Position numbers and translations under genes: made by a program. This document shows, piece by piece, positions 3,996 to 34,911 of a stretch of DNA of 64,000 nt. The notes under the pieces were generated by a model that ran no database searches, was not told the DNA's origin, and worked only from the letters and a program-made list of their open reading frames with translations. How positions within the stretch are numbered: position 1 is the stretch's first letter; each line of letters starts with the position of its first letter. The stretch covers positions 496,001 to 560,000 of the forward strand of contig NW_026570292.1 of assembly GCF_019649055.1 (NCBI RefSeq). Direction: 5' to 3'. This stretch comes from Paramacrobiotus metropolitanus. Lineage: Eukaryota > Tardigrada > Eutardigrada > Parachela > Macrobiotidae.

Positions 3996-6900
3996 TTACA
4001 AGGGCATTGTATCGCTAACTGCATGCAACCAATACGTTTTCATGTCGCCCTTGCCCTGGAAAATCGTGCACAACGCTTAGTCTGATAAATCATTACAGGA
4101 TCTGGGCAGTACAAACCGGAAATCTCTGACGTACCTTTATATTGAGCGTTCCCCGAAGCACGAACCGGAATTTCTGTGTACCGCCGGCAAGGCGTTCAAC
4201 GGACTCGCTAACATGGGCTCTTCCTGCTACAGTATTAAAAAAGCATTTGTTTACTCCTACATAAAAGTAGCTTCCTTGTTCTTGGTACCTGCACCCATTT
4301 TTATGCTCATTCCTGCTCGGTGCATAAATACATGTATTACGCCATACTCCAGCCGGGTGACGAAGCAGTTAAATAATTTCCGCATTTGTTAATAATGCTA
4401 GGGTGAAAAACATTTATCTTACCTTCGCCATGTGTTTCCATGCGACTGGCGGTATTCACAGTATCACCAAACCTGATAATTTTGAACGTGATTTAAGTTC
4501 ATGTGCTTTATGCGGTAAGCTGACTAAAAACCCGCACTGTAGTTGCACAGACATACTCAAAGAATTTGGATCGTTTCTATAATTATTATGTGTAAAAGTT
4601 CTCAAGTGGACCACACCTACAAGCAATATCGAGGCATTTTGCTGCCAATAACACCCGCTACGATCGGGCCTGTCAAAGGTCAACAAATGCAAGTTAGAAT
4701 GCGATACGATGAATAAATTTGCAGATGTTATTGAACCTCTTTGGCGTACAAACCGGAATTGATTCCAATTCTAGCACTGAGCCGGTCAGACGAAAGACAC
4801 GTTCGGGCTGATGACAACAGCTGTAGCGCTAACAGGCACAGCTCCATGGCATGCTGTGTGCCGTTGGGTGTCGGCACTCCGCTGGCCACCTGCACAACAA
4901 GTGGTCACATACTTTTACCGATTCGAGGTAGCAACTATGCCATCGTTCACCATGTATGAATCGTTTATCGTTTCCACTTTGTACGTATCGTAAAGGCCGA
5001 ACATCTTATCGAATTCCGAGTAGACATTGTTCAGCAAACCGACGACATCCCAGGGAGACCGGTTCGATAAAAGCAGCGAGAATCCCGGTATGTCACTGAA
5101 CAGTACGGATGCACTGTGGAATGTTTCTGGAAGTATTTCCTCCTTATTGCGCAGTTGATGGACGATTGATCTGCACACCGTACAAATGATTAAAACAAAC
5201 GTATACAACCATAATTATCTGTAACAAATGATCGGTACCCGTACTTCGGGAGAATCTCGGCCAGGAGTAAATCAACATTTTCCCGCTCTTCCATTAAATT
5301 CCTTGTTTTGTCCAGTACAATGCTTTCTAGCTGCTGACTCTGTTCATCCATCAGGCGCATTACATAATCAGCGATATTTTTGGGAAGCCGCAGTTGTCCG
5401 AAAAGATTTCGTAGTTGAATTAAATTGGGTCGGTCAACGGGATCAGCTTGCACACACCGTTGGGTCAACTGATGCCATTTCTGATCGACTGTGGACTTTG
5501 TCGCTGTCCCCATCATTAAAAGGTCTGTTTCTGCAGGTATAGAAGAAAAATCAATTCGTTGTTGGTTGCACTAGTTTTCCTGCTTAATGTTCACCAACAA
5601 GCCGTGTTAAAGGTCATCAGCAATCTATAACGCACTTTTGTGCCCATGGAAAATTTCACTGATCAGTCCAAAATCTTTCACATCTTCAGCCCGATACAGG
5701 AACGCTCTATCGCGCAGTATGGGAAACTGCTTGCCAGTACTTTGCTTTTCCAGACATTCCACTAAATGGAAGCATCCCAGTTTCGCAATTCTTAGACTAT
5801 ATCGATGGTTGATGAAACATGCCTCAATGGATAACGTCCCATGAAACTGCAGAGCCGAAGCATGGATGTACGACAAGCCCTAATATAAATGGGTAAAATT
5901 AAGGTGGTCATTCCTTATAACGCTATTCCATAATAGCTGATATCGCTTACTTGCAGTAAATCCCATAATAAGGATAGCCTGATGGTATCGTCCCGTAAAA
6001 CTGTGCGGGTTCGTAACAGATCACCGGCGTTGCCGCGTTCGTCAAATTCCCACATTAACGACAGCGATCCCTTCGTGATGTTAATGCCCAGGAAGTGTGC
6101 AATATTGGGATGAGATATTTTCAGAACCTGTGATTACCAGAGAATCAAAATCAAGCTTATTCTACTATACTACTATACCAGCGCTGCAGCGTAGAAGATA
6201 AAGCCGTACGGATGTTTACTTACGTCTAGGACAATACTGCGAAATTTCGAGTTGTGAGTAACGATAAATTTGGATGCGCTGTGGTCCAGAGGCACGGTCA
6301 GTGCGGCAGTCAAGAGCAACTGCGAAGTGTCCTCCACAAATATAGCGGAGATTATTTTGTCATCCGCTCTTTTCCTGTAAGAAGCATTATGTCAAGTTTT
6401 ATTATCAACGGCACTCTTACTTCGCGCTACATTTAAAATTCCATCGGTTATAGGCTAAGTAGTATACTGTATAAGTAAGTCTAACACTTAAGCTTTAAAT
6501 ATCTTTGACACCCTTTTTATGATACTGTAACCGCGCGAGCTTAAGGGACAGAAAACTGCCCCAGACCGCCCGCACTAGGCGTCGGCTTCTTTGACATCAA
6601 AGAAACCGACGTCTAGTGCGGGCGGTCCAGGGGAATTTACTGTCCCTTAAACTCGCGCGGGTACAGTAATTTAAGGTAGTTTCACGACTCACCTAATAAA
6701 CACTGCAGCAACGATTGTTGCGCAGAGAATGACAGCTGCTAGCGCCGCTGGTAAGATTATTCCTGCAAAAGGTGACTCTATCGACGATTGTACGTCGCAC
6801 ATGAAGCTACGCATTATTTACCTAACTCCACGCCCAAACATTCATCCTTATCAAACCCACACAGCGGCACATCCGGAGGAAACGGTCGACCGTTGAACCA

Positions 6901-9982: not shown

Positions 9983-12900
9983 TCAAGTGGCAACGTCCCC
10001 ATCCGCATGATGCAGCCAGAACGTTTGCATCGATCCTTTACCCTGTCAGAAAAAAATGCAGGTGTCTAAACTGCGTTCTCCGCGCGTAATGAGGGCATCG
10101 ATCTTCTGACCTTTATCGTCACTTGTCCGCGTGGTGTAAATTTCAAGCTGTTGTCCCGGCGAGCGATGGCTTCCGTTGGCTGGCCAACATGAATCTTTCC
10201 CGCTACAAATTACTTGTCACTGTACATCCTGTGCCTGTTTTACGCGGTATTTCTGTACTGCGCCTAAATTACGGTAGTTAATTTCCCCATTCCAAAGAAC
10301 TAATAATTAGTCCTTTGTAATCACACCTTGTTTATATTAATATGTTATCAATAATATATTTGCAATGTAAGTGCGAAATTTAAAGTAGAACATGCAATGG
10401 TATTGTAAATTTACCTTCGCCATTGGTCTCCATTCGGCTTGCAGTATTTACTGTGTCCCCAAATCTGCAATTATTGAGAGTTAATTTTGTAGGTTACACT
10501 GAACTGGGTGCAGTTGAAATGCGTATGGAATTACGTACAGGCAATAACGAGGCATCCTACTGCCGATAACACTGGCCACTACTGGTCCAGAATTAATGCC
10601 GACTCGGTTGCGAATAACCAGGGCCAAATCGGCTGCAATGGGGATCTCCAGCGTTCTGGAGATCTTGAGCAGATGCAGCGCAAGAAGGCACAACTGTGCG
10701 GCATGCTCGGTGCCGTTCCGCATTGGAACTCCACTGGAAACCTTGAAGAAATACAGGGTTTCGGTGCAATATACCATACATTATACGAGCTTTACTTTAC
10801 GCACATACATATTCGAAAATTACGAACTCGGTTTTGTACATGGATCAGTGTATTAGAAGTGCAATGATATACGTAGAATCTTAAACTTGACTGGAATGTT
10901 TAGATATACAGACGGAAAGTATTAAAGTCTTCGTGACCTTACCATGTACGAGTCGTTAATTGTTTCCACTTTGTATGCTTCGTACAATCCGAACGCATTA
11001 TCGTACGCAGAATACAGTGTATTGAGTATCAACACCAACTGCCACGGGGTACATTGTGTCGCCAGCTTGGCAAACATCGGGATATCACTGAACAGCACAG
11101 ATACCGAGTCGAACGTTTCTGGCTCGATTGTCTTCTTTTCGCGCAACTGGACCACAACGGATCTGAAACACTCATGTTGTACTAAAAGACATTTGGCGGT
11201 GCAAGATCGACTAACTGGGGAAGCATTTCCAGCAACAGCGCATCCACCTTGACCTTTTCCAATGTCAGTTCTTTCGACTTTTCCTGAACCTTCAGCTCAA
11301 GATCGTACATTTGACGGTCCATTGCCTGTAGTACGTATTCGACGATGTTCTTGGACGGTTTGATTTGGCGCAGTGTTTGGCGCACGTCACTTAAACTCGG
11401 ACGCTGCAGTTCGTTGGGACTCTGGCAGCGTTCCGTTAAGTCGCGCCAAATGATTAGTCGCCGGGATGCACCAGATGAAGGTTTGGCTACAAGAAAAAGG
11501 ATATATCAAATAGCAAAAGTATCCCAAATTTTTACTCTTTGAGTGGCCAGTTACCGGCGATTTCCGTTTGGATATCCAAAGACAGCAGTTGGCTCACCAA
11601 GCCAAAATTCCTAACATCTTTTGCACGCATATACGTTAACGATTTGGTTTTCTGCGCGTGCAAGCTTTCGATGATGTGATAGCAACCGGTTTTAGCAATT
11701 TTCAGCGTATAACGGTGATCCACAAAGCAGACATCTTTATTTAAAGCCCCGTGGAATTCCAGCGGCGATTTGTGTATATAAAACAAACCCTGAACAAAAA
11801 GCCGTATTTTTACCTAAACCAAAATTATCAAATCATATAATATTTGAAAGTAAAGGTTACCTGTAACAAATCCCATAACAACGACAGTCGAATGATAACA
11901 TCGTGCAGTACCGGTTTGGTCATGAGGACTGTTTCGATGTTCCCTCGATCATCAAACTCCCAGATTAAGGCGTGCGATTTTCTCAACATGCCGATTCCGT
12001 AGAAGGCACCCAGATTGGGATGGGATAATTTTCTCATCTACGAGATTTTTACGTTAGGCCAAAGTACAACCACTTGGACCGCTGGATTCCCACGATTCCT
12101 TGACAATTTTGCTCTGATGTCAAACTCGTTATTTCTTAAAAACAGTTTCACCTTTAAAACAAGGTGTCGGAACTCGTCGTCATTAGCTAACTGTCGTTTT
12201 GTGAGCGTATTCTCAAGAAGAAGGGACAGTGTCGCTTGTGGCTTAACAGTACTCTTCATGGGCACTAGAGGAGCCAAACCGGTAGTTGCTTCGGAGTACA
12301 TGGACATGTAATCGTCGTCAATAAAAACGTCCATGAACGCCTTCTTATTCGCACGTAACCTACCAAATATTCAACCGTAACAACATCAGACATTTTTCCG
12401 TTAGCAAATAGCTTTTATGCTTACTTGATGCAGCGGTAAAGAATCAGAGTGGCTACCAACAGAACAGCGATCACGGCACACGGAATAATCACCTCTAATA
12501 CAAAGGTCAGTACACAACAGGTAGTTGGCATGTCAAAAACCAGTGACCTTTCGGTTTATGCCAAGTAAAAAATTACAATCACGTTTCTTGCGCTGAACTG
12601 ACCTAACGGCACGCCCTTGCACTTTCGCCCATCGAATCCGCACGGTGGCATATCCGGCGGAAACGGCCGGCCATCCGTCCAGTTCCACAGATCTTTCCGG
12701 ATAACAGAAAACTTCCCCGTATCCTGGTTGTATTCAGCCGCCGTCTGCGATCACAACCCATTGAGTGGTGTTACAGCTTATTAGTCAAACAGCCGACGAG
12801 ATATTAATGTGTATTTATTATCCATAACGCGTTCCTCATTACCTCAAACTCTTTGTTTAGCGGATTGAGGCGTAGGTAGGGTGTCACGCGCTCTTCCCGT

Positions 12901-17413: not shown

Positions 17414-20400
17414 CTAATGTTTTGCTTCCAACCAGAAAGTCTCCATTTCGCCCTTTCCCTGTATGCAAATAAAACACCGTACAATAATACCACACAAAAG
17501 CAGATCTTGTTGGCAATGAGTGATTAGGAAAGTTCACCTTTACCGCAACCTTCCCCCGTGGTACAACAGCGAACCGTCCATCTGATCGAACCAAACACTC
17601 CACATCGTGGCTGATATGGATCTTGCCGGCTGCAACGGTAAAAGTCAAAAATCAACACTCTGTCTGCACAAATCCTAAAGATGACTAGTGACTAGGTAAC
17701 TACAGTCTGTATGTACCACTGTATTTGTACATTAATTGTTATTCTATATACACGTACTATTTTTACAAAAATGTTAATGTAGATGGTAGACCACATCACT
17801 GTGTTAAGCACAAACAAAAATCAAACTGTTCCTGTTGTAGTTGTACACAGCATTACGCAGAGCTAACCAGATCCACTCGACTCCATTCTGCTCGCGCAGT
17901 TGACTGTATCACCGAATCTTAAACAAACCACCCGCAGGTTTCCATGTTAGCGTGACAGATCAACGGCGAAAGCGTTTATCGCAATAACGGTCGCTTACAA
18001 ACAGTATCGAGGCATTCGCAGCCCAATCACTCCCGCAACTACCGGGCCTGAAATCGGTTTCTTTCTTATAGCGAAGATTGCCGTTTGGTACAACATTTTT
18101 AACCAATGGCTATCGTAATGTAGTAATCAGGCTGATATTTAGGCACGTACCGGCATTGATGCCAATCCTTATGACTAGATGCTGACCTTTTCGAAAAGGT
18201 ACAGAGAACGCTTTTGACAACACAGAGAGATGCAAAGCCAAGAGGCAGATTTCAGCAGCGTGTAGAGTGCCGTTTCGTATTGGTACGCCGCTAGCAATCT
18301 ACCAATTCTCCTGGTTATTTTTGTAACTTACAAGTACACTGTACACATATTCGGCGAGTTGGAAAATTTACCATATAGGAATCATTGATCGTTTCCACTT
18401 TGTAGCAGTCGTACTGGCCAATAGCCTGGTCAAAACCAGAATGTGTGGCATTCAGCAATGTAATGGCTTCCAGTGGTGTACAGTGCATGACCAGCTCGGT
18501 GAATTCCGGTATGTCACTAAATAAGATGGTAGCGCTTTCGAAGCTTTCCGGCACGATTACTTCTTTATTGCGCAATTTAATTATGACGGTTCTGCAAAAA
18601 CCCAGTGCGACGCATGTCAGACAGAAGCAGCTTTAATACAGTGCACCAACTTGCTAATTACAAGCAGCACACAGGTCACACACCAACCTCGGCAGCATCT
18701 CCATCAGAATGTCATCGACTTTGCCTGCTTCTTCTACTAATTCTTCCGTTCTTTCCCGGACACGCGACTCCAGCTCGTTGGTCTGCTTTCCCATAACTTT
18801 AATTACGTACTCCACAACATTATTAGGCAAGCCGAACTGGACGAACTGTTTCTTTAGAGTGGTGATGGATGGTCGTTTGGCTAGATCGGCTGACAAACAG
18901 CTGTACGTCAAAGCTGCCCACACCGCTGTCTTATCAGAAGACACTGCAAAGAATTTGAAAACTTTACGCCAAGACACACAAAATTTAATTGAGTCGTTTT
19001 ACTTGAATCATCTTTACTATACGCCAGGAACATTTGGCTGATTTCTCCAAATCCAGCGATGTCCTGTAACCTGTGATGTGCTATAGATTGCCCCGATTTG
19101 GTTGTGCTTAATGAATCCAGTAACTGGCTACATCCTGTCTGCATTATTTTGATGTTGTATCGATTGTCGATAAAGCATACGTCGGGATCGAAACTGCCGT
19201 GATACTGAAGAGGTGAATCGTGAACGTACGATATGCCCTGCAATTTGCAAATACGCTAACTCATTAATGAAGGTCATGCAATGGAAATTATCGAATTCAA
19301 ACACTAACAAGCGCAGAAGCTTTCTCCAAAAAAAATATCACCTGAAGCAGATCGCAGAGCAGCGACAGCCGAATAATTTCATCCCGTAAAGCGCTTCGAT
19401 CGCTCAGTGTCTGCCCAAGACTGCCTTTATGACTACATTCCCAGGTTAACGAAAATGTGTCCTTTACAGTAGAAATTCCGTAAAATGTGGCAATATTTGG
19501 ATGGTGTAACTTCGTGATCTGAAAATTTGGCACTGCGAATTACTTTAGAGCATCGTTAAATTTCAAAACAGCACCTCGAGAGACGTTCTGCGGAATCTGA
19601 CGTTTTTCCACAGCAGTCGCGTGCTAACATTGAGTGGCAGCTTAATGCCGGTTACGGCTGTCGGGCTGCTATCGTGATATTGGTAATTTTTTAGCTCCTC
19701 GGTGGTTAAAATGACGCTGCTCATTTTGATGTCCCCCTTGAACAGTTGTAGAAACAACCGTTTCTCAGCTGCTCTCCTGTAAATGCCATGAGACATTTAA
19801 AGTTAAGTGCAGACAAAGCAAGATCATTTTACGACTCACTTCAGGCGAACTCCAAACAGTAATGCTCCTACACAAATTGACACAGCCACCGCGGCAAGCG
19901 GAATGGCGATTTCTGTAACAACACAGCACCAGTGTTGTTCTTAAAACGAGCTTAGCAAATAAACAAGAAAAAGGTCATTCAAGCTGACAACCGAAACCAC
20001 TGACCGTAATTTGCGACCGTGCTTGTTGGGCATTTCGACCCATCAAACCCGCAGAAGGGTTCATCAGGGGGAAAACTGCGATTGCCATACGGCCCATACC
20101 ATAAGCCGTAATCCGTTATGCGAAACTCGTCATCATCGAAATCATACTGAGCGGCTTCCTATATGGAGGATATGTGAATAAGTGTTTTAAATGAATCATT
20201 TATCAATAGGTGATATGCGATTTCTATTTGGCTTTCTTCGAGACTATGCAGTAGTTTCACAGTTAACGTGCAAAGCAGGAAATAAAGGTTATCCGAATAA
20301 CGGTGTACATTGAACGATCCATTTACTACAATTTATACACACTTTGAACTGGCCGCTGAACTTGTTAAGGCGCTTAATGGGTGTGGGGAAGACAGTCAGA

Positions 20401-23926: not shown

Positions 23927-26900
23927 TCATCTTTGTTCTGCGTTGATCCCCTCTAACCAATACGTACATCGCATTCCGATACCCTAAAATCGTAAGGATC
24001 TAAATTAGAAATTAGAATATAAAGACACGAAATTATGAACATGTGCAATGCTGTTGACTGTTAAAGTTTGCGCTAAAATCTGGCACGCTGACCTTTAGAT
24101 GAACACTTCCGCGTTCAGTCACTTGAAATGTGGGATCGTGCCACAAATACTCAGCCGTTGTCAAACTAATCTGAATTTTCCCGGGTTCGCTTGTTGTCCC
24201 CAGTCTGGAGGCCATGTTAACCGATTCTCCAAATCTATGGTAACGTGTTAAGAGTATCAAGCTTTTCATCCAGCTTTTTTCTCATGTTTTTTAAAATTTT
24301 TCCTTACATGGAATATCGCGGTCGAACGTTCCCGATGATTCCCGCCGCACACGGCCCTGAAAGTTTGAATTATCATTTTTTTAAATATCTAACAATATAA
24401 CGATCAAGTATCACCGCAGGTTGCGCATGATACCTGAATTAATCCCGATTTTAAGGTTCAGATACGATGGAAAACTGAGTAAGCTGAATTCCTTCGACAG
24501 TCGTTCGGCGACTCTGCCGATTATGAAGACGTGCTCTCCGTCGTTTTCTTTCGGAATACCACTGGCCACCTACAGATCCATACAACTGCGGTTACCAAAA
24601 AGATCTGCACTTTGCTATTCCATCAGGTCACTCATTTAGTACAAGTACAGCGATGCTTTACCAAGTAGCTGTCTGCAACCGCCTCCACTTTGTAGCAATC
24701 GAATCGCGACAAAATGACATCGAACGCCGCAACCATTTCCATCAAAAACCGTATAACATCCGTGAGTTGGCTGGAGCTGCTCATCACGAACTCGTCAAAG
24801 CGGTCAACATAGGTAAAGAGCAGCGAGACGAAACCAAAGAACTTTGGTAGAGCTGGGTGACCTTTCCTTAACTCCACTAAAACCTGCCTATATAAAAATT
24901 TATTCAACTGAGTCTGGGTTCACAAACTTTTCACTGCCATATATTTGTCAACCACCTACAATTCTTTTTATAATTTTATATAATTCTAATGTGCATGTTG
25001 TGTACGAGCAATTGTAAAGGGAATGTTATAGGTACCTTGGTAATAGCTCTGACAAAATTAGATCACACCGCTGCCTTTCCTGACACAAGGCATTTGTACG
25101 GAGCGTAACGGTATTTTCTAACACTTGGGAATAATTTTCCAATCGCCGGACGAGATTCTCCATAAAATGTTTATCGTTGATGCCGGATACTTTGCAGAGG
25201 GCCTGCTTAACGTGTCCAATCTCGGGGCGGTCTGCAGGATCTGCGCTTTGACAGCATCCAGCAATAGAGGCTAAAACCGCTTCCTCTGCCGCCGGTTCTA
25301 AATATTTCGGTCAAGCTAATGCAAGAACTGCCATTTCATCATAGTAGTAATTAGCTCACCTTGGAATAGACATTTTTGGTCACGCATAATCCAGACTATC
25401 ATTCCGCCCAGAGCGTACATATCGGCAGCCGGTCTCGCCATGAGCGCCAATTGCACAAATGAGTTGCAGATATTTCGGTACTCTGGCGGCACGAAACTGT
25501 CGACAAACTCCTTTCCGTAGGTATCAAAACTTGTACGAGATCGTGGTTCGGATTTCATATCGGCTAAGATATCGTAAATTCCTGAATCGGTGATTTGTGC
25601 GTTAAAACTTTTGTCCACGGTGCATTTTGAAGGACGCAGATTGCCATGGCGTGTAAGTGCTGACCGATGAATGTGCGCTAAGCCCTGTATAATTGAAGTT
25701 TTTAAAACCTGTCAAAAGTTCTAATTTAAAAGAAGTACTGTAAAAGTGCTGATAAAAATACTGTATTATTTTAAACAAGAATGCTGTTTCCAGACTCAGA
25801 ATGGCTTCACACACACGTACTTGGACAATATCCCAAATGAGGGAAATTTTCAGATTATTGTCAACGGTAAACTCTTCCAGCAGAACATCCAGTCCGCCAC
25901 GCTGACAACATGTCTTAACAAAGGTGACCATCGTTGGTTGTATGGCAATGCCGACGAGCCGGTTAATGTTTTGGGAGAAATTAGCTAGACGACGCACCTA
26001 AAGTTTAAAAATACACAACAAATAATAGGTAAGCATTAACTGTATAGCGCGAAAACACAACATATTTTGTGTTTCTTACCTCGTTTAGCATATCTTGAGT
26101 AGACTTTCGAAAAACCGGCTTATGAGTAATTTTAATAATCTGCAGTCTAACGGAATGTCCATTGTACGTCATGATATCCTGCTGAACACTTGTAACCCGT
26201 GAGATCCGTGAAATCCGTCGTGTTCCAGACAGATTTAAGTTGGACACCTGCAGAAAGGACCACATCGCGGTTTAACGCAATAGACAAGCCGGTAGTGAGG
26301 CTTTCTGTAGCGAAGTATGTACAAGTGTGGATCGTAGTCGAGGTCTCATCATTTTGTTTAGATCGATGTTCCACCATTCAGCATCTTGATCATTTATCCG
26401 AGCTTTTCTGCAAAGCGTTTCATTTATTTCGTATTATAAGTACTCATACTCTGTTTACAGTCTACCCAGTGTATTGCGAAGTATACATGCATGCACTTAA
26501 CGTTCGAACGCTACGAAAACATCGTGCTTTACAGATGCTGAGGCATTTGGTACCTACCTAATGTAAAGGATGGTTGCCAGCGCACTCAGCATAACTGCAG
26601 AGAATGTTCCAAGTAACACTGGTACAATTATGGATTCTTGACCTTTAATGCAGCCAGCCACGAGGCACAGAAATGTCAAATAAATTTCGTACGCATTTGA
26701 TTAGCATTTTCTAGTGCGCTGACGTAAATCCTTACACATATCGTTTCCATATCCGCACACGGGCATATTTCTTGGCGGTTGGTTATTCCATGTTCCCCAT
26801 TTGATCGAGTAGTTTGCCGCGAGGACCAGATGCGATGTAGGACTGTCATAGCGCATGACTGTCTGTTACAAAATTCTCGATAAGTCGCATGTGGCATTGT

Positions 26901-29267
26901 ATGAAATTTTGATGTAAATAACGAATGCAAGTGTCTGCATAATATATATATTTCGCCGGTTATTTGTTATTATAGGGTACCTCGAATGTTCCAGTGCTTG
27001 GCTGAAAATTTGTTAGGCACATCATATCCTGCCTTTCGCCATATTCATTTAGGAAAACCCGGCCGACACTGGGGAAGCTTAGAGTACGATTTATCAGTAT
27101 ATTAGCAGCAGCTGTCCCATCACGAATATCCAAGTTTTTCGCTATCATTTCGGCGAGTGCCTGGTATAATTCAACTGTGTAGCGTCGCAAACATTTTTAT
27201 TGATCGAACAATTTGATTAAATGTACTACCTGGAAGAATAGTTTACCTGATGATAAAGCAAGACTGAGGCATAGGCCGCAACAACAAAATGCGAAGGCTG
27301 AAAAGAATGAACTCTAATCAAACGATCATGTAACCTAATTTTATTAATTAATCTTTCCAAACGCGCAGGTTTCAGCATTTCGTTACCCCGCTTCCTCCAC
27401 GAAATGTCGCGCTGTATTTGCTAATTGCCCTATCTTTCATCTCCGAAAGCAGGAGAGACATTTCCGGTCTGTAGTCGTAGCAGGCTGTAAGCACGAACAT
27501 GCCAGAAAAGGATTTCATGGCAACCTGAAGATAACGAATGAAAACGTCATCGTAATAAGTTGCATTTATATAAACCAACTTTTTCAGTACAGTACATGGA
27601 CAGGTGAAAGTCGTTCTCACTTTACAGCAAAACATATTCAAATTAGAGGTGTATCCTTAACGATTATTAATTTTTCTTGATAATTATTTGCGCTGCAGTA
27701 CCTCATCGTCCGCATCTCCGACCGCATATTTTAAGGGACCAAACGGATTACTGGGACCGTCCATATAGATGCGTACCTGTGTATGGGCGGTGTGGGTGTG
27801 AATAATGTAATTAGCGGGAAATTTTTCAAGTTATTATTGGACTTACAAATTCAGTTGCAGGTGCGCCGAGACGATATAATGCCATCTATTTTGTAAGAGC
27901 AGTTTCTCAGCATTGCAGTATCTTCTTTTCTCAGCAGTTGTATTACATTGTGAAAAATTAACAAGCTTACATTATATTTTAGTAAGTTTAGTTCTATATA
28001 TGTTTTAGAATTTTCCATTAAAACTTACGGATAAGTTCCTCGCAGTGTCAGGGAGAGTGCTGATCAGCACAACTATAAAATAAATGAAAACTCTAATAAC
28101 GACACCGCATTAGAATACACTAGTACACTAATTATTTTTCTAATGTGTACTAGTCGTACGTTTAATTTACGGTTATTTATGCTGTACGATGTTTTACGCT
28201 TCTCGTTTCAAGGAAAAAATGTACTCGCTGCACCGGTAAAATACAAGCTGGTTCGGTTATGATCACCTCGAGCGACCTGGGCAACACGTGTGACCACCAG
28301 ATCAAAATCCACACTGTCGCTGTTGTTAATCGGGTACGAATAAAACCGTATGGACTTGCCATTGATCCGCAGATGCTTCTCGATTGCATTATACACCATA
28401 ACGTTAAAAATCTGCCGAGTGGAATTATCATACACCATGGCCACGGATGTCCAGTTGTGCTTATGTAAAAAACCCAGTACACTGGCACCGTATGGAGTGT
28501 ACTGAAACGGGGCGAAATCGATGGTTGACGGATACAAGGCACGGTCGCGAAGGTGGGAAAAGGTCGTCCCACTACATCGCCCCACACAGATTAGGATTTC
28601 TAGATTATTTATTTGCTGTTAAACCAGGCGAAATAACTTACGAGTTTAACGTGAATAAATTCCATTCTGTAATTGAAAAAACGATATTACTGTAAATCAG
28701 GAAGCGGTTATGAAATCAAACATGCTGTTGTCTGACCTCTTCCCAAGCTGGCTAATGTTATTGTAGGATTGCAACCTAAAACAATTAGGCTGTACACGTT
28801 AAATGCAATTTTTCAGTACAAAAATTTCCCATATTTACGCGCACATCGGAATTATGTTAATCAGGCCAAAGCTGCTTTAGAAAAGTCAAACACACTGTAC
28901 AATAAAATCTAACCTTCGTGTTTTTACCTGGATAAAATAATGCGCAAACAGTATTTCCATCTGTGCATCTCCTGTAATAGTATTCGGCAACGACATGATA
29001 AGACAAGTCAAAATCCGGGCAGATTGCTAGTTCCTTAGGCGAGATGTATTCCAGAGTGACGTTGAGCATTCCCGGGTACAGCGCGGCCGCGTCGCGTAAT
29101 CCCAGATCAAATCCAGCTGCCGTAAACGGTAATGCTTGTATAAATCGCGGTACGGCCATCCCGTAAACGAAAATAGTAACATTGCGAGAACACTGAACCG
29201 CAAAGATGTATTGTAGCAACAGCAGCACAATTTGCCGACAGAATGCAAAAACCAGTTGGTTGTTCAT
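23927..29267 (-). CDS. Receptor guanylate cyclase-like rGC-E, cyclase site degenerate
   Basis: Exons: 29267-28928, 28775-28737, 28666-28642, 28571-28267, 28072-28029, 27885-27847, 27776-27702, 27524-27387, 27297-27247, 27160-26981, 26862-26736, 26642-26558, 26407-26323, 26247-26080, 25997-25821, 25684-25360, 25297-25036, 24887-24662, 24569-24434, 24356-24308, 24234-24093, 23983-23927; 1024 residues. Signal peptide, then a ligand-binding domain with the classic EWNLFTLNSG segment, carried partly by a 25-base exon. Membrane helix about 459-481. The kinase-homology domain is well kept (SQNINRLVGIAIQP, HGNLRPSKCTVD, ITDSG, VPPEY, AADMYALGG). In the cyclase domain FSDIVGF is replaced by FTYVDRF, so the first metal Asp is gone. 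The second Asp remains (KVEAVADSYL), and the guanine-site Cys is Ser (PRYSI). The Asn and Arg of the catalytic helix remain (FGESVNMASR). Probably inactive alone. Confidence 0.9.
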
Positions 29268-29989
29268 GGCGATTCTGGCGAAGGCCGAAGATCGGAGATT
29301 TTGCCACTACCGCAATGGAGACGGCTCATCTTATCCCATCTGCTCATCAGGCGCCGGCGGGTTGGAAACCTCGATTTCTAATGGATTAAATGGAAAACGG
29401 TTGATTTCCACTAAAGTGACGTTAATCCACATATTACGGCATATTAGGCCCAACATGTCACAAGGTTTACACTGCCGGGCGGCCTCCGTCATATGGAGGA
29501 TATTTCCTTCGCTCAATTCATCGTATCGTCTTATAATTAATTAATGCAATCAGCATCTGCTGGGTACTGTGTCGGTGATGTCTTGATAAATTAATAAAGT
29601 GACATCGGTTCCCAACCTCTTTACTAACTACACTATGAACACGGCAATTGTGGTTACAATGCAGCATACATCCTGCAAAATTTAGATGTAGACGATATTA
29701 TATAAAGACGAAGCCTGACCGGTTATATTCCGCTTCGTGAATAACGGATTTGTTTTACAAATAAAGCGCAATTTATTTTAGATACAACTAGTGCTTTATT
29801 CGTTTCTTGTACGTAGGTACATACGTCAACATAAAATGGTTTCCTCTAAAGAAGTGAATTTGATAATAGAAGACATTGACAACACTAGACATTAAGAAAC
29901 ACACTAGATAATAGAAGACATTGAGGAGGCAACGTTACATTGACTACACAGAATCACAGCTACGGAAACCACTGGTAAATCTGCTGCGG
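29268..29989. other. Spacer between rGC-E and rGC-F
   Basis: Contains two direct copies of gataatagaagacattga (near 29861 and 29905) and candidate rGC-F poly-A signals on the minus strand near 29772 and 29789. Confidence 0.65.
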
Positions 29990-32900
29990 TCACTCCGAAG
30001 TCAAGCTCTCTAACCAGTAGGTGGACCGCCATCCAATGCCCTGCAACCATAAATTATATTATGGCACAATGTAGCTAAGATGCCGAAAAATGCGGCACTA
30101 GTACTACCACCACCAATGATAAACTGCCAAACTGTTTTCTAACCTTCAGATTCATGAGTCCTCTTTCTTTAACGAGAAATGTCGGATCACATCGCAAGTG
30201 CTCGGCGGTTGTCGAGCTAGTTTGTATTTTTCCGGGTACGCTGGTGCTGCCTAATCTGGAAGCCAAGTTGACGGATTCTCCAAATCTACAATGGAATCAC
30301 CGCTGGTCAACGATGACTTGTTCACAATTACACTTTGTACCGTACACGCAGTAACGCGGTCGCACACTGCCAGTGATTCCCGCCGCACAGCTTCCTAAAT
30401 TACACTTCGGATTTAATAGCTGTGAGGTCTAAATACTTTCAAATCTGGAATAGTTCCAGGCAAAACCGTACCGGTATTTACTCCAATCTGGATGTTCAAA
30501 CTAGGCGGAAAACTAAACGCCCAAAATGTGTTTAATAACACATCAGCAAGTCTGCTTATTATGTACACGTGTTCGCCGTCGTTTTCTTTCGGGATACCGC
30601 TCACTATCTGCAAAAAAAACCGTAATTTTAATAAACCATAACCTGTATTTTATCTTAGTTGCTAAAGTATTTCTGCTTAGCGTTTTATTAGAATGCTGGT
30701 TGATGCCTCACCAGGTAGCTATCGGCAACCGTCTCCACCTTGTAACAATCAAATTTCGACAAAACCGTATCGAAAGCCGAGACCATTCGATCGAGAAATC
30801 CCAGGATATCCGCTAACTGGTTAGAGTGACCAATTACGAAGTTATCGAATCCATAGACGTATGTGAACAACAGGGTGACAAATCCGAACAGCCGCGGGAG
30901 AATTGAATGACCTTTTCGCAATTCCACCAAAACCTGTCTGATTGCAAATAGCTTCTGCGCTTAGCTGCTAAGAAAACTTAGAAAACATTGCAAATATTCG
31001 CCATGATATTTGCACTTAGAAAGAATGGCAGTTTACGTGGTATAGGAAGCATAGCTGTTCATAAAAGTGCGGGAACGGTATTAATGTGGTGATTAATCTG
31101 TACGCAAACGTTTTATATATTATAAGAATAAGCTAAAATACCGTGGTAGCAACTCTGCCAAGAGTTGATCGCAGCGTTGTCTTTCCTGTGATAGCGCCTC
31201 TGTACGGACTGCAACTGTACTTTCTAGTGTTAGGGAATAGTTTTCCAGTCTCTTAATAAGATTCTCCATGAAATTCCTATCATCAACACCGGGTAGTCTG
31301 CGCATCCGCTCTTTCACAGCCTCAATTGGCATGCGATGCGCTGGATTTCTCGTTCGACAACTCTGGACAACGCTCCATACTGTATTCTCCGTTGTTGCCG
31401 CCGCGTCTATAATAGAAAAGTTTTAATGTATGGGTGTAGGTTTTTTAAAGTTACCGATGCTTCTGGTGTACCTTCAAATAAGCACTGCTGATCGCTCGTG
31501 ACATACAGTATCACTCCACCGAGAGCGTAAATGTCGGCAGCTGGTTTCGCCATTACGGATAACTGCGCAAACGTATCGCAGACGTGTCGGTACTCAGGCG
31601 GCACAAAGTTATTAGTAAATTCTGTCCCGTAGCTATCGAATGATTTCGACAATCGGGGCGCACTCCTGGATTCCGACAAAAGGTCATACATTCCGACTTC
31701 GGTTATTTGTGCAATAAAGCTTTTATCCACGAGGCATTTTGATGGACGGAGATGGCCGTGGCGTTGGATGCTGGACCGATGAATGTACGATAAGCCCTAT
31801 AAGGCTAACTAAGTTTAATCTTATAGAAACAAAACTCTTTTGTAAATGCCCGCGCAGTACTCGTACTTTGATAACATCCCATATTAGGGAAATTTTTAAA
31901 CTGTTATCCACGAGGAACTCATCCAACAACGTGTCCAGTCCGCCTCGTTGGCAACAGCTTTTTACGAATGTGATTGTGGCCGGTTGTACGGAGATGCCGA
32001 TTAATCGGTTAATATTCTGGGTGGTGTTTGCCAAGCGACGCAGCTGGAAAATCATAAACCACAAAGTTTGTTGGTCAGAAAAAAAGTATTATGTATGGTA
32101 ATGCGATGCACCTCGCACAGTATCAGGTGGCAAGGCTTTCCCAGTGTTGGTTTATGGCTGACTTTCACTGACCGCAGCCGTACAGGTTGACCCTCGTAGA
32201 CCAGAAATGTGTACCGCGAAACTCTACCACGTGTTCCAGAGAAATCCAAGTGGGATATCTGGTAATCAGCAAGCGCATTGTATGAACGGATTTTTGAACG
32301 TTGATACGAGTATCACATCGTCATCATGTAATACAAAATTTGCAAACCATACAAAATTAGAGTGCTGCAACGGCTTCTCCAGCTTCTGTAGGTCGATATG
32401 CCACCAGTCGCTTTCTTGATAACTCGCTTTCATTCTTCTGCAAAAATGAAGGCTGCAATACATATAAATTTGCTTTTATAGCAGCAAGCATATAAATATT
32501 GTTAGATAATCCAAATAGTACCTAATGTAGAACCCGGTGAATACAAAAGCGATCACCACTACTCCAAAAAACGCGCCTAACGGCACGGCGACACGGAATC
32601 CTTGACCTTTACGGGAAATACAAAATTTTCGCGCACAGTTTCCCGTAGTCAGCTCACAATTTACATACATAAATCGTTTCCATACCCGCATACCGGCATA
32701 TTTCTAGGCGGTAGGTTGTCCGCGCTTCCCCAGTCAACTGACCGATTGGCAATAAACATTAGTTTCCCTTCTGCACTAACGTAACGGGCGACATTCTACA
32801 AGCAACATACGCTAATGCCATTAAAATTTGCAGCAACGAACTATAAAGTACCGATAGTTTTACCTCAAATGCGCGAATGTTGGACTGGAAATTCGCTAAA

Positions 32901-34911
32901 CAGACACTGTCCTGTCGTTCACCGTATTCATTCAAAAACACCTTTCCCACAGGGGAAAAGGAAAAGGACCGGTTCAGGAGCGCTTGGGCAACGGTTCGCC
33001 CGTCACGAATATTCCCGTCTGCGCTGACGGTTTCCTGTAGAGCCTACATGTGCACAAGGACCGCTTTATATGTCCGTATTGATTATTCTTTGAAAATAAT
33101 TGAACGGCTTAATTTGGCTTACTTGGAAGTACAGCAGAACTGACGTGTACGCGGCCACAACTAAAGGTGAGGGCTGGAGAGCAAAGACCATAACAAGTGA
33201 TTAAGTTATGATTAAATATCGCCTTCAAGCTCATATCTCGTGTATAATTAAATATACCTATAATAATATACCTAACGCATTTCCCATACCTCGTTTCCTC
33301 CTAGAAACGTTGCGTTGTATTGAGTAACTGCCCTTTCTTTCATCTGCGCCAAAAGCGACGACATGCCTGGACCATAATCATAGCAGACCGATAATAGGAA
33401 CATTCCCGTGAATGATTTTAAAACCTGAATAGTTTTGCAGCACTTTAAAATAATTATCTGGCATATACAGAAAATATATAGAAATTTATATAGAAATTTA
33501 TCTGGCATATATATGTGGCATATGCAAAATATAGTAGTTGCATGCCTCGTCATTGTCGGCATCTCCTGGTTGCTTGAGAGACGTGAAAGGAGAAGCAATG
33601 CCGTCAAAAAAGATGCGTACCTTAAAGCGGTTAATCCAAAACATGTTACAGCGTTTGTTCGATCAGATTACAATATTAAAACATTTTAATGCGGCTTTGT
33701 AAGTGCACTCATGTAAACCGTTATACCGACACTTACGTATTCGGTTGCCGGTGTCCCGAGGCGATAAAAAGCCATCTGAAGGAAACTAGCGTTTTAAACG
33801 CGGTTGACCTTGCATGACATATGGAATCTCAAACTTACCGAGAGATTTCTGGCCGTGCCAGTGGGTAGGCTTATTAAAACAACTAGAAAATAAGAAAGCC
33901 GTGATGTCAAACTGCATTTTGTGGTTTAATTATATACCGTTTTCTTACGTAAGCAATTAGAAAATGCTAACTTATGCTTACCGCGAGCGACCTGCGAAAT
34001 TTGCGAAACCACCCAGTCATAGTTGATGAGGCCCGTGCTGTTAACCACGACAGAATAAAAACGAATACCCTTTCCTTTCAACCGCAGATACTTTTCCACT
34101 TCATGATACACCATAGCGTTGAAAGGCTTCGCGGTGGAGTTATCATAAACCATGGCGACGGATGTCCAGTTATAAGACTGCAGTAAGCGCAATACCATTG
34201 CACCATAAGGAACATACTGGAGGGGCGCAAAGTCGATGGCGGTTGGGTATAGGGTGTGGTCATGCAGATGCGAAAAGGTCGTTCCACTGCAACACGTTGC
34301 CTCATGAATTCATTAACTTGAAAGCTCCAAACGAGCAGGATAAAAACGCACAAACAAAGCGGCGTCAATGCACTTACGAATTCAGCGTAAATATGTTCCA
34401 TTCTAAGGTCAACAAGAACGATTTATTCAAGCGTTGTGCTTAAAAATTAATGCTTTAACAGTTAACTGACCTCTTCCAAGACTGGCCAGTGTAGTCGTCG
34501 GGTTGCAGCCTAATATATGTACCAGTATATATGCATATTTAAACGAGACAAAGAATTAAACCCTTTAATTATTACAAATGCAGTACCTGGGTAAAAAAGC
34601 GCGCACACTTGTGTATTATTTAGGCATTTTTTATAATAATACTCCGCAACAAGTTGGTAGTGCCCGTCGAAATCCGCGCACACTGCTATTTTCTTGGATG
34701 TGATGTATTCCAGACTGATGTTAAACATGCCAGGATGCTGCTGTTCTGCGTCGCGCAATCCCCAATCAAAGCCGGCTGCAGTGAAAGCCAGTGCTTGAAG
34801 AAACGGCGCTGACGACATTCCGTAGACCATAATGGTGACATTACGCTGAGCATGCGCCACATAAATGTACAACAGCATTACAAAGATGCTAACACTAAGA
34901 GCATTGGACAT
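29990..34911 (-). CDS. Receptor guanylate cyclase-like rGC-F, cyclase site degenerate
   Basis: Close paralogue of rGC-E. Exons: 34911-34587, 34509-34471, 34402-34378, 34286-33982, 33882-33839, 33775-33737, 33620-33546, 33424-33290, 33173-33123, 33043-32864, 32795-32669, 32606-32522, 32437-32353, 32258-32112, 32043-31867, 31796-31472, 31406-31142, 30937-30712, 30607-30472, 30394-30346, 30285-30144, 30040-29990; 1010 residues. The Met at 34911 gives a clean signal peptide (SIFVMLLYIYVAHAQ). An upstream in-frame Met exists at 34971. Ligand-binding domain has EWNIFTLNSG; membrane helix about 455-475; kinase-homology has RHGHLRPSKCLVD, ITEVG and AADIYALGG. Cyclase: FTYVYGF in place of FSDIVGF (first metal Asp lost), KVETVADSYL, PRYCV with the guanine-site Cys kept, and FGESVNLASR. 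The intron after 33546 appears to begin with GC. A candidate minus-strand poly-A signal lies near 29772. Confidence 0.9.

Follow-up and report, generated by a model that had tools for sequence, protein, structure and literature searches.

Two receptor guanylyl cyclase genes of the tardigrade Paramacrobiotus metropolitanus lack the first catalytic metal aspartate and probably encode partner subunits

The 64,000-nucleotide stretch of the Paramacrobiotus metropolitanus genome analyzed here (contig NW_026570292.1, positions 496,001 to 560,000; hereafter the window, in whose numbering all coordinates are given) contains two neighboring genes, E and F, for receptor guanylyl cyclases in which tyrosine replaces the first of the two catalytic metal aspartates. 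We consider that E and F are probably partner subunits of the kind represented by the beta1 chain of soluble guanylyl cyclase, contributing the Asn, Arg, and guanine-binding half of a shared active site. This reading rests on what sequence can establish: the frames are intact, the architecture is that of a receptor, the first Asp is lost while the other half of the site is kept, and selection is purifying.

The E and F gene models were assembled by joining the exons conserved between the two genes, with splice sites picked by consensus and by agreement between the genes. The models and a pair of matching exons within them are as follows.

23927..29267, reverse strand: gene E, receptor guanylyl cyclase, 1026 amino acids, 22 exons, 21 GT-AG introns
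29990..34911, reverse strand: gene F, receptor guanylyl cyclase, 1012 amino acids, 22 exons, 20 GT-AG introns and 1 GC-AG intron
25036..25297, reverse strand: exon of the E model covering the final part of the kinase homology domain plus the linker that precedes the cyclase domain
31142..31406, reverse strand: exon of the F model matching the kinase-homology-end/linker exon of E

The F start codon at 34911 and the E stop codon at 23927 match the span assigned to the two genes in a preliminary description of this DNA. That description had also called the frames intact, and both are indeed open across 22 exons; each spliced model is a single open frame with zero internal stops, and neither gene has the broken frame of a pseudogene. 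The extracellular, kinase homology, and class III cyclase domains of a receptor guanylyl cyclase are all present. Specifically, E and F score 49.5 and 74.2 bits against ANF_receptor (PF01094; Pfam cut-off 25.4), 31.8 and 27.6 bits against the kinase homology profile PK_Tyr_Ser-Thr (PF07714; cut-off 23.1), and 127.3 and 133.2 bits against Guanylate_cyc (PF00211; cut-off 21.9). A hydrophobic exon, read from the models, lies between the extracellular and kinase homology parts (26558-26642 in E and 32522-32606 in F). The two proteins are 59% identical overall, 63% in the extracellular domain, 67% in the cyclase domain, and 70% over the 44 residues of the linker. The GC-AG-bounded intron of F is at 33425-33545.

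The active site residues of the two cyclase domains were read at the following positions.

24797..24817, reverse strand: E FTYVDRF (the FSDIVGF site), first metal Asp replaced by Tyr, codon TAT at 24809-24811
30847..30867, reverse strand: F FTYVYGF (the FSDIVGF site), first metal Asp replaced by Tyr, codon TAC at 30859-30861
24665..24694, reverse strand: E YKVEAVADSY, guanine Glu and second metal Asp (in VADSY) retained
30715..30744, reverse strand: F YKVETVADSY, guanine Glu and second metal Asp (in VADSY) retained
24310..24321, reverse strand: E PRYS, guanine-site Cys replaced by Ser
30348..30359, reverse strand: F PRYC, guanine-site Cys retained
24204..24233, reverse strand: E FGESVNMASR, Asn-Arg pair retained
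30255..30284, reverse strand: F FGESVNLASR, Asn-Arg pair retained

These readings bear out the preliminary description in three respects: the replacement of the first Asp by Tyr in both genes, by different Tyr codons; the retention of the second Asp and of the Asn-Arg pair; and the Ser at the guanine-site Cys of E. Neither protein therefore has both of the metal aspartates of a self-sufficient homodimeric guanylyl cyclase, and both have the Asn-Arg pair and guanine Glu of such an enzyme. The roles assigned to the active site residues follow those described for soluble cyclase in PMC3591389 (below) and otherwise general background. A splice or alignment artefact at the first Asp was rejected because each gene carries the motif within a single open exon and because a raw-frame survey agreed with the spliced models (below); an assembly error was rejected because the Tyr codons of E and F differ and all eight members of their clade (below) lack the Asp. 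A profile search of the 2367 open stretches of the window found no alternative exon near E or F that would restore the Asp. The replacement of the guanine-site Cys by Ser is also seen in a metal-lost clade of three (L032, L101, and L134; here and below, metal-lost denotes domains lacking one or both metal Asp). Because E and this clade are separate, this replacement seems to have had two origins within the metal-lost set.

The residue pattern of F is that of the beta1 chain of soluble guanylyl cyclase. In PDB 4ni2_B this chain reads FSGIVGF, KVETVGDKYM, and RYCLFGNTVNLTSR, with Gly in place of the first Asp and with the second Asp, Glu, Cys, Asn, and Arg kept; E differs from it at the guanine Cys alone. 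The residue set of a beta-type half-site, first Asp lost and Glu, Asn, and Arg retained, is thus common to E, F, and 4ni2_B, and it is on this ground that E and F are read as beta-type partners. PMC3591389 describes metal aspartates Asp-486 and Asp-530 as coming from the alpha chain and Arg-552 from the beta chain, and no significant activity in either homodimer. The likeness concerns the active site: soluble guanylyl cyclase beta1 is cytosolic, binds haem, and has its own dedicated alpha chain, whereas E and F have ligand-binding and kinase homology domains. The best PDB matches of the F cyclase domain are human GC-C (8fx4; E-value 3.7e-37) and NPR1 (9bcv; E-value 9.3e-33), which read FSDIVGF and IGDAY and so, unlike E and F, keep both metal Asp. 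Mammalian receptor cyclases are homodimers (PMC5225109).

E and F belong to a clade of eight domains (Shimodaira-Hasegawa-like approximate likelihood ratio test support 99), the other six of which lie on the same contig. The first-Asp position is Tyr in E, F, and L005, Ser in L006, His in L004, and Gly in L001-L003; in L001-L003 the second Asp is in addition replaced by Glu, such that both metal aspartates are lost. Asn, Arg, and Glu are present in all eight. Because all eight members lack the first Asp, its loss most simply predates the clade. Models of 986-1017 amino acids were obtained for L001, L003, L004, and L006, and the L005 model begins inside the extracellular domain, its 5' end missing. 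L002, whose cyclase domain is nearly identical to that of L001, departs from the E/F profile over its 5' half (L195+L001 and L196+L002, contig C72); a rearrangement or insertion is possible.

Metal-lost domains are under purifying selection. L001 and L002, both without either metal Asp, differ by 33 synonymous and 2 nonsynonymous changes, giving a ratio of nonsynonymous to synonymous substitution rates (dN/dS) of 0.015, and comparisons with L003 gave 0.02-0.03. Of 23 metal-lost pairs compared, 12 were unsaturated, and 11 of these had dN/dS values of 0.015-0.18; intact pairs with finite, non-zero values (n = 5) had 0.01-0.17. Neutral evolution of the cyclase domain, which the preliminary description had named as an outcome that would count against its proposal, was accordingly not seen. 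No dN/dS ratio is quoted for the E and F cyclase domains themselves because their synonymous sites are near or at saturation.

Loss of metal aspartates is widespread in this genome. At least 225 places in the 170 Mb genome match the exon encoding the N-terminal half of the cyclase domain, a count that was compiled from three match lists, each scoring 150 of 314-366 candidates, that takes in any soluble or adenylyl cyclases, and in which near-identical pairs (e.g. L118/L119 and L039/L040) are possibly haplotype copies. With a purpose-built profile-to-DNA aligner allowing introns, 199 domains were read, 194 fetched from outside the window and five inside it, 26 listed places being left out. The first Asp was lost in 76 of the 199, the second in 20, and one or both in 87; both were kept in 112. 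The second-Asp loss of L146, which looks like a splice misread, is still included in the counts of 20 and 87. The sample is biased, the first 140 domains fetched being the best matches to the F exon itself; among the 54 domains added later, from lists queried with Asp-keeping exons, the first Asp was lost in 15. Ten residues replace it (Ser, Ala, Tyr, Gly, His, Glu, Ile, Gln, Cys, and Thr), and for the first 145 domains a raw-frame survey and the spliced models gave identical first-Asp residue counts. The FSDIVGF motif, which the preliminary description had called invariant, is therefore not invariant at this Asp, and the neighbors of E and F in the window, which keep the Asp, read FSDIP.F.

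The complementary half of the site is retained in the metal-lost domains. Asn and Arg were readable in 180 of the 199 domains (19 were unreadable), and both were retained in all 81 readable metal-lost domains. The guanine Glu was retained in 199 of 199 domains, and the guanine Cys in 69 of the 74 readable domains without the first Asp. Across 80 near-full-length metal-lost domains the identical columns are Glu67, His87, Gly132, Gly142, Asn146, Arg150, and edge column 1. These column counts and the tree use 179 domains; the tree is a quick one, with the four site columns removed and with support below 80 at 62 of 177 inner branches. On it the metal-lost domains fall into 16 clades, eight of which are single copies, with 42.6 changes per column. 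Eight columns, including Glu67, Asn146, and Arg150, are unchanged in these clades. The first-Asp column has 19 changes against a median of 17, indicating that it is now an average column and that the half of the site which a partner subunit of the beta type would supply is fixed. On the whole tree the first-Asp state changes 17 times by parsimony.

Eight domains have the converse pattern, with both Asp kept and both Asn and Arg lost (L019, L023, L042, L044, L047, L138, L143, and L144). Their substitutions are Gln, Ala, Val, Thr, or Ser for Asn and Lys for Arg; five of the eight form one clade, and parsimony gives three loss events. Asn, Arg, or both are missing in 12 of the 180 readable domains. 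Besides the eight, these are L049 and L051, judged to be splice misreads, the long-branch outlier L175, and L037, in which Asn alone is lost. Because eight domains do without both residues, the fold seems not to require Asn or Arg, and by itself it hardly explains why they are fixed in the metal-lost domains.

If E and F are beta-type partner subunits, a homodimer of either would be unable to hold two catalytic metals and would make no cyclic guanosine monophosphate (cGMP). Together with a receptor carrying both Asp, either could form a heterodimer with one complete site, to which E or F would give Asn, Arg, and the guanine residues and the partner the metals. Such a heterodimer would link a single active site to two distinct extracellular domains.

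A less probable explanation is that E and F are pseudo-cyclases, which bind guanosine triphosphate (GTP) or a partner without catalysis and act as dominant-negative subunits, scaffolds, or ligand sinks. Loss of the first Asp in E and F, loss of both in their close relatives L001-L003, and conservation of the fold and linker would all suit such proteins. However, a scaffold has no need of Asn or Arg, and these residues have nevertheless stayed unchanged in the metal-lost clades over the changes counted above, and the eight converse domains show that members of the family can dispense with them. The preliminary description had offered partner-only subunits and pseudo-cyclase receptors side by side; the former are favored, with Asn, Arg, and Glu kept while the position of the lost Asp has drifted, and the latter are less favored. 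It is very unlikely that E and F are active as homodimers with the second Asp or some other residue holding the metals. Both retain the second Asp, and E has an Asp two residues past the lost one, but this nearby Asp is missing in F, the first-Asp position varies among Tyr, Ser, His, and Gly across the clade, and the same pattern in the soluble cyclase beta homodimer goes with no significant activity, according to PMC3591389. Least probable of all is that E and F are recent copies in decay, their cyclase domains under relaxed or no selection, for although E has extra changes (Cys to Ser, and Thr to Ala in KVET), the frames are open over 22 exons, conservation between E and F is higher in the cyclase domain than in the extracellular one, dN/dS is 0.015-0.03 among L001-L003 of the same clade, and the whole clade of eight shares a loss that is most simply older than itself.

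Several points weigh against E and F as beta-type partners. The edge column, Ser77, His87, Gly132, and Gly142 are unchanged in the metal-lost clades too and are not known site residues, so invariance alone cannot single out catalytic residues; moreover, Asn, Arg, and Glu may be conserved for binding GTP with no catalytic role. The metal-lost pair L008/L009 has a dN/dS of 0.69, a value given little weight because the L008 model contains a misread stretch. Glu and Cys, which would be superfluous in a pure alpha-type subunit, are still present in the eight converse domains. The absence of doubly lost domains rests on about three Asn/Arg losses, with values of 0.007 by genes and, more weakly, 0.16 by events, and with so few events the two-by-two complementarity count is not relied on. 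A fetched metal-keeping copy lies within 50 kb of only 11 of the 87 metal-lost copies (for another 45 such a copy is found at a greater distance on their contig, and for 31 there is none), and pairing by tandem neighborhood is thus unsupported as a rule. Heterodimer formation, the shared site, and inactivity of E or F alone are predictions from sequence, and residual homodimer activity is possible. Outside E, F, and their six relatives the reading covered the cyclase part, and these copies are presumed to be receptors. Finally, proof in native cells of the worm heterodimer described next is still awaited, according to a review (PMC8045692).

Half-site receptor cyclases are already known as an idea from Caenorhabditis elegans. 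Several of its receptor cyclases are without Mg- or GTP-binding residues and have been proposed to be obligate heterodimers, and when the inner domains of ODR-1 and DAF-11 were placed on the outer part of another receptor, the response was restored only by the two jointly (PMC8045692, PMC5225109). Like E and F, ODR-1 and DAF-11 are of the receptor type and belong to a family with members missing site residues, a likeness drawn here at the level of the family. These reviews, in their accessible parts, base obligate receptor guanylyl cyclase heterodimers mainly on this one worm pair. C. elegans has 27 receptor cyclases (PMC5225109); the cyclase-exon places counted here, at least 225, are in themselves a very large expansion. 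In the openly licensed literature, as far as its texts were accessible, we found no report of an animal whose cyclase copies are this numerous or so often metal-lost, nor a comparable report in the accessible parts of tardigrade papers, including PMC5531438.

We tentatively raise the possibility, itself rather doubtful, of a combinatorial receptor system in which about 80 or more beta-type cyclases each pair with a metal-bearing one, eight of the latter being converse half-sites. Were this true, and most of the genes receptors, a single active site would respond to two different extracellular signals, and the sensory code would lie in the pairings rather than in single receptors. With the first Asp missing from 76 of 199 domains, and the complementary half kept in every readable metal-lost one, the heterodimer question is open to pairwise assay, and the natural sequences might let the dimer code be read. 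They also call for caution in annotation, since a protein named guanylate cyclase may be incapable of producing cGMP by itself.

According to the profile search, the N-half cyclase exon occurs five times in the window, once each in E, F, and three neighbors.

4918..5214, reverse strand: open stretch containing the cyclase N-half exon of neighbor wA, all site residues retained
10925..11296, reverse strand: open stretch containing the cyclase N-half exon of neighbor wB, all site residues retained
18318..18632, reverse strand: open stretch containing the cyclase N-half exon of neighbor wC, all site residues retained

A fourth neighboring copy, L074, lies 1.2-1.4 kb beyond the left end of the window. 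Of the cyclases A-D named in the preliminary description, three cyclase domains are therefore inside the window and the fourth is outside it. All four neighbors retain both Asp, Asn, Arg, Glu, and Cys, and with this full residue set they would suit as partners of E and F, as candidates only.

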